DNA from: Candidatus Desantisiibacteriota bacterium
GTDB taxonomy: Bacteria; JACRDZ01
Length of the DNA: 8,145 nucleotides
Reading direction: 5' to 3'
Assembly: GCA_016209155.1 (NCBI GenBank)
Contig: JACQWU010000301.1
Location: forward strand, 1 to 8,145
Shown: positions 2,456 to 8,145 of the stretch, piece by piece
Position numbering within the stretch: position 1 is the stretch's first letter
Layout of the letters: each line of letters opens with the position of its first letter
Position numbers and translations under genes: made by a program
Notes under the pieces: model-generated
The model's database searches: none
What the model was told of the DNA's origin: nothing
The model's input: only the letters and a program-made list of their open reading frames with translations

Positions 2456-5209
2456 ATGAATAGAAAAATATCATATACAATATCAGTTTTAATTTTGTTA
2501 ATTTTAAGTTTAATTACAACTGAATCACAAAATATTTATGCTGAAGTTTATGGGAGTATATCTGGGAGGGTGTTATTTGCAGAAACTGGAGAACCAGTGA
2601 AAGGGATATTAGTATCTATATCTGTTTTAGACCCAGAGACATGCACTCCATTATCATGTAGGATTAGCAGTACGATAAAGACGGATGTGAATGGTAATTA
2701 TGTTTTTAATAGAATTCCTCCAGGGGAATATAAAATAAATTTAGGCGATCTTACCACTGAATACAATCATTATTATTATGATACGAGTATGGGGAGGTTG
2801 GCTTCTGGGTACTCTGATGCTGATTGTGAAAAATATAAATTGTTTGTTGGGAAAAAGTCTGTAGATGATTATGTATATAGAAAAGTATATGAATCACATA
2901 ACTTGCCTATAAAATTTTTGTCAGGCAAAAATATAACAGAATTAAATATTTTGTTTAAAAAAGTTTATGGAACGATATCAGGGAAAATATTGCGTGAGGA
3001 TAATACTCCTTTTGAAGGAAGTATTAGACTTAGTGCTAGTACTATAATAGGTGATACAATTTACTATCCTCGTTATTTTGGTGATTTTACTCAAAAAGAT
3101 GGGTCTTTTAATTTACAATTATTACAGGATTCACCTGGTTGGAATTTATTTATATATTATAGACCGAATTATGAAGGTAATATTGCATATGCATATAAAT
3201 ATCCTACACTTATAGATATCAAAAGAGGAGAAGATAAAAATGATATTATGATTTATCCCATATTTGATACAACTACAGTATTTATAGCCACTGTGTATGA
3301 TACTACTAAAATTCCTCTAAAAGGAATTAAAGTATATTTAATTCATAAAAATATTCTAGGGCAAAAAGATTATAATATAGTAGCTACAACAAATGAATAT
3401 GGTAAAATTTTTATAAAGGGACTTCCATCAGGAATTTATAATATTGAATTAGATAAACCAATTGACATTGAAAAGACTTTTGCTGGTAAAAAGATAGTAT
3501 TTAAGAGTAGCAAGAAATATATTTATCAAAAAGCTGTAGAAATTATTTTAAATAAAATTAATGAAGAAGAATTGATTTTTATTGAAGATAAAGCTACTAC
3601 CGTAGAACCTACTATTTTACATAGAACAGGATGTAATAGCTCTGCAGGTGATTTGGCAAATGATCTTTGTAATAAGATATGTCAAGAAAAAAAATTTGCT
3701 GAATGTGGTAAAAATGGACCTTGTCCAACACAACAATCAAATCCAGCTGCTAATTGTGGACCATATATATGTGATGGGATAACATTTTGTTATGAATTTG
3801 GTCGTGATGCTGGTGATGCGGAAATTCTTATTAAATGTGATGACCCAATATTTTATGAGATTGTTGAAGCACATGAAAAAGTGCATAAAACCCAATATAG
3901 CCCATGTAGTAAATATGATAATGCTGGTGAGTATAATGATGCGATGAGCTTAAATCATTGTAATGATGAAAAACAAGCTTTCACAGCAGAGAAAGGCCAA
4001 GCTGAATTATATGTAAGTGCATGTCGTAGTACTTTAAACCTTGGCAACGACTGGTGCGATGAACAATTCGCCGTAAACGACCCAGTTATTCCTAAGCCTT
4101 TATATTACTCCCAACTTCCCGATGTAGCAATACTTGAAGGTGGCTCAAATACAGCAATGCAAAGTTTAATCAGCACTTTTCGCTACAGCAATATCCTCAC
4201 AGATATAACAACCACATCTCAGGAGTTATTCAGCTATGCCAAAGTTTGTGTTATCCCTACAGGTGGTCTTGTAGGCAACGATTCCTCTCCGCAATTTAAA
4301 GCATTACTCGGACAGTATGTATCTGCAGGCGGATTTCTTGTAGTAATGGCAACTCAACACAGCAGTGATTTGAGTTGTATTCCTGTTACCGAAGGTGATA
4401 TGCTTTCAGGATATATGTGGCGAGAAGACATGTCATGCTGGTCAAATTCAGTGGAGATACAGGAATGGCATACAATCTTAAGCGGTCAGAGTAAAAATAT
4501 ACTTTCAGAACCTGTGGATGGTTATTTTACTTCATGGCCAAAAGAATCAAAAATCTTATTAAGAAGAACAAAAAACGGTCAGCCGTGCATGTTGCTTTAT
4601 TCCTATGGCAAAGGCTGGGTATTGGCAACAACAATTTACACAGACTATGGTTATAGCGTAGGTCAAGCAAGCACAAGCGGAAAAGCCCTGCTTCGCGACA
4701 TAATCACCTGGGCTAGAAATTCTGTTGAGATGATAGAATATAGACCAGGCAGTTCGATAGATATTCCGATTACAATAACGAACAAAACAGAAGTGTCAGT
4801 GAATAGTGTCAGTGTCAGTGTGTTAACACCCAATGGTGTCGAAAAAGAAAAAATCCCTCTTAATCTCCCTTTGCAAAAGGGAGAAACAGGGGCATATACA
4901 TACACTGGAACAGCAGGTCAGGAACTCGGCATATGGCGTATAGAATATGCTTTATTGGATTCAGCAGGCATAAAAATGCAAAAAGAATCGGCTGGGGCTA
5001 ATTTTGTCGTATCTTCTCCTCCAGCTAATATAAAACCTGCTCCAGACTTATCTTTTTCAGTTCAAAGCAATACAGAGAATTATGTTAAAGGCAGTAGTGC
5101 TGAGTTTACAATAATTAGCTGGAATACCAGTGATGAGGAAAGAAATATTACGTGTAAATATTTCTTCCCTCATCACTGGTGGAACACACAAAATGTGCAG
5201 TATGTATAA
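2456..5209 (+). CDS. Secreted multidomain protein with HExxH metallopeptidase-like core (paralogue A), 3' end probably truncated
   Basis: This encodes 917 residues. The start is ATG 2456, set by GGAGG and by a clear signal peptide: MNRK, hydrophobic residues 5-20, and an IYA cleavage site after residue 29. Domains in order: a carboxypeptidase-regulatory/CNA-B-like sandwich (about 30-100, YGSISGRV...G.PVKG...G.Y.F..IPPGEY); a second beginning VYGTISGKI (about 170-265); a third (about 272-345, PLKGIKV...GLPSGIY). Next is a Cys-rich segment (about 393-535) containing HEKVH at 473-477, followed by Q480, C502, E505 and E512. E505 lies 28 residues after the second His, a spacing that fits a gluzincin-type third zinc ligand. 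Residues 556-754 resemble a glutamine-amidotransferase/ThuA/DUF4350-like flavodoxin fold (DVAILEGG, VCVIPTGGL, GGFLVVMAT), but no nucleophile Cys motif is seen. Ig-like domains follow from about 755 and 862. The second breaks off after about 55 residues, where the frame runs into unrelated sequence at 5203 and stops at TAA 5207. Probable role: exported protease or surface protein; substrate unknown. Confidence 0.9.
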   Translation: MNRKISYTISVLILLILSLITTESQNIYAEVYGSISGRVLFAETGEPVKGILVSISVLDPETCTPLSCRISSTIKTDVNGNYVFNRIPPGEYKINLGDLTTEYNHYYYDTSMGRLASGYSDADCEKYKLFVGKKSVDDYVYRKVYESHNLPIKFLSGKNITELNILFKKVYGTISGKILREDNTPFEGSIRLSASTIIGDTIYYPRYFGDFTQKDGSFNLQLLQDSPGWNLFIYYRPNYEGNIAYAYKYPTLIDIKRGEDKNDIMIYPIFDTTTVFIATVYDTTKIPLKGIKVYLIHKNILGQKDYNIVATTNEYGKIFIKGLPSGIYNIELDKPIDIEKTFAGKKIVFKSSKKYIYQKAVEIILNKINEEELIFIEDKATTVEPTILHRTGCNSSAGDLANDLCNKICQEKKFAECGKNGPCPTQQSNPAANCGPYICDGITFCYEFGRDAGDAEILIKCDDPIFYEIVEAHEKVHKTQYSPCSKYDNAGEYNDAMSLNHCNDEKQAFTAEKGQAELYVSACRSTLNLGNDWCDEQFAVNDPVIPKPLYYSQLPDVAILEGGSNTAMQSLISTFRYSNILTDITTTSQELFSYAKVCVIPTGGLVGNDSSPQFKALLGQYVSAGGFLVVMATQHSSDLSCIPVTEGDMLSGYMWREDMSCWSNSVEIQEWHTILSGQSKNILSEPVDGYFTSWPKESKILLRRTKNGQPCMLLYSYGKGWVLATTIYTDYGYSVGQASTSGKALLRDIITWARNSVEMIEYRPGSSIDIPITITNKTEVSVNSVSVSVLTPNGVEKEKIPLNLPLQKGETGAYTYTGTAGQELGIWRIEYALLDSAGIKMQKESAGANFVVSSPPANIKPAPDLSFSVQSNTENYVKGSSAEFTIISWNTSDEERNITCKYFFPHHWWNTQNVQYV
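4805..4822 (+). repeat. Short AGTGTC hexamer repeat (Ser-Val) in gene 2
   Basis: Tandem AGTGTC-type hexamers encode alternating Ser-Val in an Ig-like strand. This copy is two residues shorter than the equivalent tract in the third gene, so the tract has changed length in whole units without breaking the frame. Confidence 0.75.
4850..4884 (+). repeat. Palindromic CCCTTTGCAAAAGGG-type repeat inside gene 2
   Basis: A perfect 9-base inverted repeat (4864-4872 with 4876-4884, loop GCA) follows a CCCTCTTAAT lead. Read in frame it gives KIPLNLPLQKGE, and in antisense SPFCKGRLRGIF. From general knowledge, NPPLQRG/PPFCKGG peptides are the signature of a palindromic dispersed repeat found across many bacterial genomes. 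Here it appears to be domesticated within an Ig-like domain as in-frame coding sequence. Its assignment to a named repeat family was not checked. Confidence 0.7.
5127..5179. repeat. 23-bp inverted repeat (long hairpin) inside gene 2, near the junction
   Basis: The arms 5127-5149 and 5157-5179 are reverse complements with one A/C mismatch, separated by a 7-base loop (5150-5156). It codes for TSDEERNITCKYFFPHHW. There is no T-run after it and it lies within coding sequence, so it does not look like a terminator. It ends 23 bases before the abrupt unit junction at 5202/5203. Confidence 0.85.
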
Positions 5210-5315
5210 TCCATCTGGTAAAGGGAGTAAAGTTACAAATAAAATAAATTATAGCGAATGGCGAATGCCGTTAGAGATAGAAACAGATGATTTGATGTGG
5301 GAGAGGGAGCAATAG
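5203..5315 (+). pseudogene. Orphan 3' fragment of a beta-helix gene
   Basis: This stretch matches 2317-2429 with a handful of substitutions and no indels. It encodes YNPSGKGSKVTNKINYSEW and onward to DDLMWEREQ and TAG. Everything upstream of these 37 codons is missing: the preceding sequence is the interior of gene 2 in another frame. It could be read from ATG 5202 (a 37-residue peptide overlapping the gene 2 stop), but no Shine-Dalgarno site precedes it, so translation is doubtful. The substitutions relative to the intact tail (Lys to Ser, Arg to Lys, several silent changes) show that it comes from a second, older beta-helix gene copy rather than from a very recent duplication. Confidence 0.85.
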
Positions 5316-5329
5316 GAAAAAATACAAAT

Positions 5330-5334
5330 GGAGG
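5330..5334 (+). promoter_or_regulatory. Shine-Dalgarno site of the third gene
   Basis: GGAGG lies seven bases before ATG 5342. The whole 26-base spacer differs from the one before gene 2 by a single base (T to C at 5325), so the translation signal was duplicated with the gene. Confidence 0.9.
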
Positions 5335-5341
5335 AATAAGT

Positions 5342-8145
5342 ATGAATAGAAAAATATCATATACAATATCAGTTTTAATTTTGTTAATTTTAAGTTTATT
5401 TACAACTGAATCACAAAATATTTATGCAGAAGTTTATGGGAGCATATCGGGGAAGGTGGTATTTGCAGAAACTGGAGAACCAGTGAAAGGAATACTAGTA
5501 TCTATATCTGTTTTAGACCCAAAGACATGCACTCCATTATCATGTAGTATTAGCAGTGCGATAAAGACTGATGTGAATGGTAATTATGTTTTTAATAGAA
5601 TTCCTCCAGGGGAATATAAAATAAATTTAAGTGATATTACTACTGAATATAATCATTATTATTATGATACAAGTATGGGAAGGTTAGCTTCTGGATATTC
5701 TGATGCTGATTGTGAGAAATATAAATTATTTGTTGGAAAGAAGTCGGTGGATGACTATGTATATGGAAGAGTATATGAATCACATAAATTACCTATAAAA
5801 TTTTTGTTAGGGAAAAATATAACAGAATTAAATATTTTGCTTAAAAAAGTATATGGAACAATTTCAGGAAGAGTACTACGTCAAGATAATGGTCTATTTG
5901 ATGGCTCTATTAGAGTGGAACCTGCAAGTATAGTTGATAATAATACTTATTATTCCCGTTATTATGGCATTTGGGTGGAAAAAAACGATGGTTCTTTTTT
6001 ATTAGATTTATTAGCAGATTCAGTTGATTGGAATTTATTTATAACATATAGTCCATCTTATAGTATGTTTAAAACAGAATTTGGAATTAAACGTTCTATT
6101 AATTATGGGTATAAACACTCTAATTCGATAGACACACGTGGAGCAAAAGATGTAAAAGATATTATAATCTATCCCGTGTTTGATACAACCACAGGATTTG
6201 TCGTTACTGTGTATGATACAAGTCAAATTTTTTTAGAGGGAATAGAAGTGGAATTAATTCATAAAAATAGATTAGGACAAAAAGAATATTCTATGTTAGC
6301 CAGTACAGATGAAGATGGGAAAGTATTTTTTAAAGCAGTGCCATCTGGGACATATAATATTACTCTGACGAAATTAATGATGGTGGAAGAAGAAAGAAGT
6401 ATTGGTCGAGGTAAATATGCTAAAAAAATAAAGGAATTGGTTCAAGGCTGGAAAACATATGAATATCCAGAGGCAATAGAAATTATTTTAAATAATATTC
6501 TTAAAAAAAATCTAATTTATGAAGAAAATAAAACTATTCTTAAAACACCTTTATATTTAAAATCTTCATTAGAGAGAAAGTGTTTTTCACTAGCAGATGA
6601 TTTGTGTGGCGCAGTATGTAATAATTTAAAGGATGCTGAATGTGCAAGTGAAGGTCCGTGTCCTACACCTGCTTCAGATCCAAGTGATCCTTGTCCAGGT
6701 GCAACATGTGGAGGAGATACAAAATGTACATCAATCGGTGAGGGCGCAGGTTTACCAGTTCCTACAATAAACTGTAGTAATCCAGAATTTTATGATATTG
6801 TTGCAGTACATGAAAATGTGCATGTGGGACAACTTGCGCCTTGTAGCCAGTATAAAACATGGGAGGAATATTTTTCAAAAATAAGGGCAAATAGATGTGC
6901 TTGGGAACATGCAGCTTATAGTGCTGAAATACCATATTGGGAGGGATTAAGAGATAGATGTAGAAATGTTTTGAATCTTGGTAACGATTGGTGTGATGAA
7001 CAATTCGCAGTAAACGATCCAATCATTCCAGAGCCGTTGTATTACTCCCAACTTCCCGATGCAGCCATTCTTGATAATGGCGCATCAGAACAAATGCAAA
7101 GCCTTTTAAGCACATTTCGCTATGGTAACATCCTCACGGACATAACAACCACACCTCAGGAGTTATTCAGCTATTCCAAAGTTTGTGTTATCCCTACAGG
7201 TGGTCTTGTAGGTAACGATTCCTCCCCACAATTTAAAGCATTACTCGAACAATATGTATCTGCAGGCGGATTTATTGTAGTAATGGCAACTCAGCATAAT
7301 AGCGATCTTTCATGCATTCCTGTTCCAGAAGGAGAGAGTCTCAACGGATACATGTGGCGCGAAGACATGAGCTGCACAGCAAATTCGATTGAGATACAGG
7401 ACTGGCATAATATTTTAAGCGGGCAAAGTAAAAATATTCTATCCGAACCAGTAGATGGTTATTTTACCTCCTGGCCAAAAGATGCAAAAATTTTATTACG
7501 AAGATCAAAAAATGGTCAACCGTGTATGTTGCTTTATAAATATGGTTCAGGCTGGGTATTGGCAACAACAATTTACACAGACTATGGTTATAGCGTAGGG
7601 CAAGCAAGCACAAGCGGAAAAGCTTTACTTCGTAACATAATCACCTGGGCTAGAAATTCTGTTGAGATGATAGAATATAGACCTGGTAGTTCAATAAATA
7701 TTCCGATTACAATAACTAATAAAACGGAGAAAGAAAGTGCAAGTGTAAGTGTAAGTGTAAGTGTTTTAACGCCCGATGGAGCGGAGAAGGAAAAAATCCC
7801 TCTTAATCTCCCTTTGCAAAAGGGAGAAACAGGAGCATATACATACACTGGAACAGCAGGACAAGAACTCGGCATATGGCGTATAGAATATGCTTTATTG
7901 GATTCAGCAGGCATAGAAATGCAAAAGGAATCGGCTGGTGCTAATTTTGCCGTATCTTCTCCGCCAGCTAATATAAAACCTGCTCCAGACTTATCCTTTT
8001 CAGTTCAAAGCAATACAGAGAATTATGTTAAAGGCAGTAGTGCTGTGTTTACAATAATTAGCTGGAATACCAGTGATGAGGAAAGAAATATTACGTGTAA
8101 ATATTTCTTCCCTCATCACTGGTGGAACACACAAAATGTGCAGTA
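5342..8145 (+). CDS. Secreted multidomain protein with HExxH metallopeptidase-like core (paralogue B), open at window end
   Basis: The frame is open for 934 codons plus two bases with no stop before the edge. The start is ATG 5342 after GGAGG, and the signal peptide is almost identical to paralogue A (cleavage after IYA, residue 29). The domain order is the same: three carboxypeptidase-regulatory-like sandwiches, a Cys-rich core, an amidotransferase/flavodoxin-like domain (about 573-771) and Ig-like domains. The core carries HENVH at 490-494 (6809-6823), then Q497, C519, E522 and E529. These align with HEKVH, Q480, C502, E505 and E512 of paralogue A although the surrounding sequence is only about half identical by eye. 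It is 19 codons longer than A over the shared length: 17 in the diverged middle and 2 in a Ser-Val tract. The C-terminal half is richer in G+C than the middle. Likely an exported putative zinc metallopeptidase; activity and substrate are unknown. The true C-terminus is not visible. Confidence 0.92.
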   Translation, partial: MNRKISYTISVLILLILSLFTTESQNIYAEVYGSISGKVVFAETGEPVKGILVSISVLDPKTCTPLSCSISSAIKTDVNGNYVFNRIPPGEYKINLSDITTEYNHYYYDTSMGRLASGYSDADCEKYKLFVGKKSVDDYVYGRVYESHKLPIKFLLGKNITELNILLKKVYGTISGRVLRQDNGLFDGSIRVEPASIVDNNTYYSRYYGIWVEKNDGSFLLDLLADSVDWNLFITYSPSYSMFKTEFGIKRSINYGYKHSNSIDTRGAKDVKDIIIYPVFDTTTGFVVTVYDTSQIFLEGIEVELIHKNRLGQKEYSMLASTDEDGKVFFKAVPSGTYNITLTKLMMVEEERSIGRGKYAKKIKELVQGWKTYEYPEAIEIILNNILKKNLIYEENKTILKTPLYLKSSLERKCFSLADDLCGAVCNNLKDAECASEGPCPTPASDPSDPCPGATCGGDTKCTSIGEGAGLPVPTINCSNPEFYDIVAVHENVHVGQLAPCSQYKTWEEYFSKIRANRCAWEHAAYSAEIPYWEGLRDRCRNVLNLGNDWCDEQFAVNDPIIPEPLYYSQLPDAAILDNGASEQMQSLLSTFRYGNILTDITTTPQELFSYSKVCVIPTGGLVGNDSSPQFKALLEQYVSAGGFIVVMATQHNSDLSCIPVPEGESLNGYMWREDMSCTANSIEIQDWHNILSGQSKNILSEPVDGYFTSWPKDAKILLRRSKNGQPCMLLYKYGSGWVLATTIYTDYGYSVGQASTSGKALLRNIITWARNSVEMIEYRPGSSINIPITITNKTEKESASVSVSVSVLTPDGAEKEKIPLNLPLQKGETGAYTYTGTAGQELGIWRIEYALLDSAGIEMQKESAGANFAVSSPPANIKPAPDLSFSVQSNTENYVKGSSAVFTIISWNTSDEERNITCKYFFPHHWWNTQNVQ
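7735..7764 (+). repeat. AAGTGT hexamer microsatellite in the third gene
   Basis: Five tandem hexamers (AAGTGC once, then AAGTGT four times) encode (A)SVSVSVSV within an Ig-like domain. The equivalent tract in paralogue A is shorter by two residues, so slippage in 6-base steps is likely and stays in frame. Confidence 0.85.
7793..7827 (+). repeat. Palindromic CCCTTTGCAAAAGGG-type repeat inside the third gene
   Basis: This is the second copy of the in-frame palindromic repeat (arms 7807-7815 and 7819-7827, loop GCA), again giving KIPLNLPLQKGE. Its presence at the same codon position in both paralogues shows that it entered the gene before the duplication. Confidence 0.7.
8070..8122. repeat. 23-bp inverted repeat (long hairpin), second copy
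   Basis: Identical in all bases to 5127-5179, including the single arm mismatch. It ends 23 bases before the window edge, just as the first copy ends 23 bases before the unit junction. Confidence 0.85.

Follow-up and report, generated by a model that had tools for sequence, protein, structure and literature searches.

The region studied here probably encodes the enzyme cassette, a zincin-type metallopeptidase, of a giant secreted protein in which the slot for this cassette is exchangeable. The window, i.e., the whole stretch of DNA that was analysed, is one entire contig (C239, 8,145 bp) of a MAG (G000) of 3.08 Mb that is incomplete (79%), and the collection holds only three other genomes for its phylum. 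The following features were located in the window, A and B being two paralogous ORFs:

3 to 2,429: 3' part of an ORF for a right-handed beta-helix protein (PF13229, NosD-like), upstream of both paralogues
2,456 to 5,209 (+): ORF A, 917 aa, ATG at 2,456, stop at 5,209, signal peptide MNRKISYTISVLILLILSLITTESQNIYA
2,555 to 2,737 (+): CarboxypepD_reg of A (PF13620), passing the Pfam cut-off
3,629 to 4,033 (+): Cys-rich diverged HExxH core of A, residues 392-526
3,872 to 3,886 (+): HEKVH of A (H473-H477), with Q480 after it
3,968 to 3,970 (+): E505 of A, candidate third zinc ligand, ExxA motif
3,989 to 3,991 (+): E512 of A, the Glu of A[FY]xAE, kept in four of four own-genome copies
4,046 to 4,102 (+): start of the constant region of A, NDWCDEQFAV, equivalent to DHPD[DE]xxSV of relatives
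4,103 to 4,717 (+): GATase/ThuA-fold constant domain of A, with GYMWREDMSC
4,718 to 5,206 (+): start of the Ig-like backbone of A, weak MG2, cut off at 5,209
5,210 to 5,341 (+): tandem-unit junction, the 130 bases or so that follow A, repeating the 3' end of the beta-helix ORF (offset 2,886)
5,342 to 8,143 (+): ORF B, at least 934 aa, ATG at 5,342, open and leaving the contig end
5,441 to 5,632 (+): first CarboxypepD_reg of B, Pfam match
6,203 to 6,397 (+): second CarboxypepD_reg match of B, singly below the cut-off
6,566 to 6,970 (+): Cys-rich diverged HExxH core of B, residues 409-543
6,809 to 6,823 (+): HENVH of B (H490-H494)
6,905 to 6,907 (+): E522 of B, candidate third zinc ligand
6,983 to 7,654 (+): DEQF linker and GATase/ThuA-fold constant domain of B

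The same beta-helix 3' end sequence precedes A and B. This repetition, together with the abrupt stop of A, indicated that a unit consisting of a beta-helix end and a giant gene is tandemly repeated. Judged from its sequence, ORF A looks like either a truncated copy of the giant protein or the product of a mis-assembly. Both N-termini consist of a hydrophobic export signal followed by CarboxypepD_reg (PF13620; E-values of 5e-12 and 9e-13 in A and B, respectively). An earlier note on this DNA had read three such domains: the domain itself was confirmed above the Pfam cut-off, and the number three is plausible, HMMER having detected two separate stretches in each protein.

Conservation in A, B, and the three further copies described below supported the HExxH core as a real conserved domain. 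A and B have in common the motif HExxHxxQ...C..E..A[FY].AE and, in A, C502 and E505 lie 25 and 28 residues, respectively, from the second His (H477). Coordinates were verified for the features that the earlier note had described in both paralogues (HExxHxxQ, the Cys at +25, E..A[FY].AE, and several Cys) and for the Glu 28 residues past the second His, which is E505 of A. The cores (A 392-526 and B 409-543) align without gaps and are identical at 52 of 135 residues (38.5%), so that the strong divergence stood, with a figure somewhat lower than the half that had been estimated. Eleven of 12 Cys positions in the 135-residue core coincide (hypergeometric P 3e-14), and all eight motif residues are kept (chance at that identity, P 3e-4). 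Identity between A and B is 92% over residues 1-170, 51% over 171-391, and 90% over 527-915.

Two further copies were found by searching the same genome, a third (HENKHVGQ) and a fourth (HERIHVGQ), both on contig C45, and a fifth with the same architecture (HEDVHVIQ...FELEAF) in G001, from another family of the phylum. HExxHxxQ with a later ExxA occurs in 5/5 of these cores, which represent two families of one phylum; homologues lacking HExxH, which the earlier note had named as evidence against its reading, were not found among them. In the fourth copy the column aligned with E505 holds Asn, and ExxA is recovered through a Glu located two positions before it. The loop of this copy is shortened by 13 residues, and its Glu spacing is 15 versus 28-29 in the other four copies. 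This shifted Glu and shorter loop indicated that E505 itself is no invariant column. Conservation of the second Glu, E512, is not clear in G001. The fourth copy and G001 carry few of the core Cys, yet they retain H, E, H, and Q. A hydrophobic N-terminal export signal was seen in four of the five copies (A, B, the third, and G001). The third paralogue (L012:4161-9000) is split over several frames and has no DEQF linker, which suggests a gene in decay or an error of assembly. Since A is truncated and the third copy frameshifted, some copies may be decaying. When 386 genomes were scanned with the core profile, true matches were obtained in G000 and G001 alone, i.e., in this phylum. Two weak matches were discarded as chance, one that stops inside (G218) and another in a multihaem CxxCH cytochrome (G356). 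No match was obtained in core scans of viral contigs, in phage and plasmid scans with the entire protein B, or in a first scan of genome contigs with A4.

The domain following the core was modelled confidently by AlphaFold2 (pLDDT mostly >90 over residues 161-340 of the model). Its fold is that of class I GATases, ThuA and the GH42 middle domain (VIA Z 14-17 over 166-202 residues), the matches at Z 14-17 including 1t0b, GATases, and 5xb7. This fold agrees with the amidotransferase-like domain of the earlier note, though the domain matched no Pfam family. The usual Cys nucleophile elbow, located from predicted strand and helix positions, contains no Cys (VVMATQHNSD in the window and QQHG in relatives; alignment A9), and because of this the modelled domain is probably no amidotransferase. 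It has a motif of its own, GYGWxEDQSC ... DGYFTxYP. A constant-domain profile with the motif G[YF][GM][WY]xE[DE][QMT][SA]C was searched against GTDB genomes and detected 59 further loci (L051-L109) in bacteria and archaea. The carriers belong to Nitrospirota, Deltaproteobacteria, WOR-3, Elusimicrobia, Endomicrobiales, Chloroflexota, Acidobacteriota, and Schekmanbacteria, and also include ANME-1/Methanophagales, Hydrothermarchaeota, a Paenibacillus strain, and the haloarchaeon Natronobiforma. In many loci the constant region opens with D-x-P-D-[DE], where the window has NDWCDEQFAV. The domains downstream of it are MG2, CARDB, and similar ones, and the Paenibacillus protein matched almost every locus over the length of this backbone (phmmer 1e-47 to 1e-264). 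A search of the open-access literature for this backbone under its domain names yielded nothing relevant. The genome under study also contains, on contig C349, an open ORF of 4700 aa (L025) with the same GATase-fold domain, no HExxH, and later repeats resembling RCC1 (WGxNxxGQLGDGT); the ORF before it resembles by sequence the Zn-phospholipase C of L050 and had no Pfam match.

The slot before the constant domain is occupied in these loci by diverse modules: Peptidase_M23 (L052 and L064, and more weakly, below the cut-off, L093), Amidase_6 (L057, L058, L083, and L087), Amidase_3 (L086), Zn_dep_PLPC (L055, and L050 below the cut-off), Lipase_2 (L071), PGAP1/LCAT (L100), and thioredoxin (L089). 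In seven loci (L062, L068, L069, L070, L079, L096, and L104), RHS/YD repeats directly precede the GATase-fold domain; these RHS-bearing loci were from archaea (ANME-1 and Natronobiforma) and Chloroflexota. Many other loci have Big_5/Ig spacers, or modules without a Pfam name, before the constant domain, so that the slot may not hold an enzyme in every case. A giant protein of Methanophagales (L065:1682-3300) carries in the same slot another HExxH domain (HELIH ... SDECYTYAMEYF) with a Cys-rich linker. An exchangeable enzyme cassette on a constant carrier, a feature of polymorphic toxins, is therefore present, with at least seven module types, and the HExxH domain is most likely one such exchangeable, exported hydrolase cassette. 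The architecture listed in the earlier note turned out to be that of no metallopeptidase family but a general giant-protein backbone whose slot is held by many unrelated hydrolases. This backbone with swappable hydrolases is a more interesting part than the HExxH domain.

Substitution rates between A and B also pointed to a separate behavior of the cassette. The highest dS, 0.94, was that of the core; residues 171-391 had 0.75, the constant region 0.46, and the N-terminus 0.26. dN/dS was 0.77 in the core versus 0.13-0.16 in the flanks. At a dS of almost 1 the core approaches saturation, and for this reason the contrast in rate between core and flanks is approximate. The paralogues are thus diverged, as had been proposed, though not merely so: since dS in the flanks is far below that of the core, the core behaves like a cassette with an evolution of its own. 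Cassette and flanks would have different histories, either because the flanks were homogenised by recombination or because cassettes were exchanged. A quick tree built from the constant domain showed modules of one type grouping within clades (10 changes for 9 labels, with a mean of 16.6 after shuffling). Among the labelled rows, the four HExxH cores all lay on the same side of a branch (support 85). L086 and L100, both from Elusimicrobia RIFOXYD2_FULL_34_15, have sister backbones (support 98, a starred branch) that carry Amidase_3 and a PGAP1/LCAT-like alpha/beta hydrolase, respectively, a clear module swap within one genome. M23 and Amidase_6 each showed more than one change on the tree, which the starred branches alone do not force.

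The main rival to this reading takes the core for a Cys-rich module of binding or adhesion that lacks catalytic activity, HExxH being a dead or structural remnant (e.g., of a metal-stabilised lectin-like or inhibitor-like domain). The high Cys content (12 per 135 residues, 11 of them shared), the absence of a match to a known peptidase family, the uncertain third ligand of the fourth copy, and the Ig-rich, adhesin-like context would all fit such a module. We nevertheless regard it as less likely, since none of the five copies departs from H, E, H, and Q, the motif persisting in the fourth copy and in G001 where much of the Cys framework is gone, and since the same slot of relatives holds known hydrolases.

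A more specific assignment was sought among known metallopeptidase families. HExxH, a feature of clan MA (zincins/gluzincins), is present in 5/5 copies. No Pfam family scored above chance against the core in hmmscan up to E 10, metallopeptidase models included; NCBIfam gave no family match, and neither did a core-plus-GATase profile against PDB sequence families. The earlier note had recognised no named family, and with the profile search run the core indeed lies outside every Pfam and PDB sequence family. Membership in the Tox-MPTase group was rejected, as no Pfam toxin metallopeptidase matched the core to E 10. The HExxHxxQ-E signature has been published for the PVC-metallopeptidase, now eCIS_core/PF13699/DUF4157 (PMC3482391), and it is present in the core. 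This identical signature, and the occurrence of two real PF13699 proteins on contig C225 of the same genome, would favor a strongly diverged eCIS_core/PVC-metallopeptidase acting in self-processing or effector loading. However, the PF13699 profile missed the core at E-values up to 10 and found the two C225 proteins at 1e-26 to 1e-30; hhalign of core and PF13699 gave 1.9% probability over 20 columns, covering the motif alone; and the stretch FG.dFs.VRiH...A...G..i.f, found ahead of the motif in true members, is missing here, Cys-rich sequence standing in its place. Membership in eCIS_core was consequently rejected, and even a strongly diverged relationship appears very improbable. The two C225 proteins (L110 and L113), one of them encoded after an alpha/beta-hydrolase-like ORF, suggest a contractile injection system in the organism.

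That HExxH arose by chance within a spacer that diverges rapidly, as the weak constraint on the core (dN/dS 0.77) might suggest, can practically be dismissed, since composition predicts only 0.0005 matches of HExxHxxQ in both proteins and the motif, followed by ExxA, is conserved at the same place in five sequences, including G001 and the fourth copy.

A secreted zincin is the best reading of the core, partly supported, with a predicted His/His/Glu site. AlphaFold2 models of the core were of low confidence, with pLDDT 44 for the core alone and 45-62 near the motif when the core was modelled in context (31 sequences); at this low confidence, HExxH and ExxA lie on separate, successive helices. 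A fold search with the core-alone model (pLDDT 44) gave no useful PDB match.

Based on these results, we propose that the order of domains would be a signal peptide, CarboxypepD_reg (prealbumin-like) spacers, the Cys-rich zincin-type metallopeptidase, the GATase/ThuA-fold domain, and the Ig backbone. In the HExxHxxQ ... ExxA arrangement, the two His and the Glu would bind Zn and the Glu of HExxH would activate water. The GATase/ThuA-fold domain, apparently without the usual Cys nucleophile, would be followed by a long Ig-type (MG2/CARDB) backbone, and in relatives the slot is filled by peptidoglycan amidases or peptidases, phospholipase C, lipases, or RHS shells. The most probable role of the backbone is to display or carry a degradative enzyme outside the cell, and the enzyme of the window would be a disulfide-rich peptidase cutting an extracellular protein or peptide, or one of a neighbour. 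Its role may be attack on neighbours, scavenging, or self-processing. A broader proposal, which we advance tentatively, is that these loci form a pan-prokaryotic class of giant secreted proteins with a GATase/ThuA hub, an MG2/CARDB backbone, and swappable hydrolases, in which HExxH would be a new, fast-diversifying cassette, acting in microbial conflict or predation.

If true, this would add a zinc-peptidase family absent from the profile libraries searched. The peptidase family would also be tied to a carrier that occurs in Nitrospirota, WOR-3, Elusimicrobia, Chloroflexota, Paenibacillus, and ANME-1 and has cell-wall amidases and phospholipases among its cassettes. Such a carrier, itself constant but fitted with swappable lytic enzymes, suggests attack between microbes, or scavenging, in lineages that are known largely through metagenomics. 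As the backbone is present in two named strains (Paenibacillus ginsengarvi and Natronobiforma cellulositropha), tests in culture are possible.

Taken on sequence grounds, the core would be a narrowly distributed new variant of secreted zincin-type peptidase, on a backbone apparently undescribed in the open-access literature. Gluzincins (thermolysin, M48, and the ImmA/IrrE type) combine HExxH with a downstream Glu in an ExxA-like context. The core matches none of them in sequence, and its Glu spacing is 28-29 in four copies and 15 in the fourth. It resembles eCIS_core/PVC-metallopeptidases in having HExxHxxQ and then a Glu on what is, at low model confidence, a following helix; these enzymes have been associated with exported proteins of several domains, some of them variable (PMC3482391). 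Unlike them, the core has no profile match and is Cys-rich in place of the pre-motif strand region, its protein carries an N-terminal signal peptide for export, and the core is the variable part, not the constant one. Tox-MPTase1-5 are small HExxH domains that act as exchangeable enzymes of large secreted, often RHS-linked proteins (PMC3482391); they are located at the C-terminus after RHS, whereas the cassette of the window precedes the constant region, close to the N-terminus. Polymorphic toxin systems have a C-terminal variable toxin and an adjacent immunity gene; the window cassette is N-terminal, on contigs that are short. ThuA, the GH42 middle domain, and class I GATases have the same fold as the constant domain, which differs from class I GATases in its elbow without Cys, its own motif, and its lack of a Pfam family. 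The giant CARDB/MG2 exoproteins (L051-L109) have the same constant domain and backbone and carry other modules, such as M23, Amidase_6, PLC, or RHS, in the slot.
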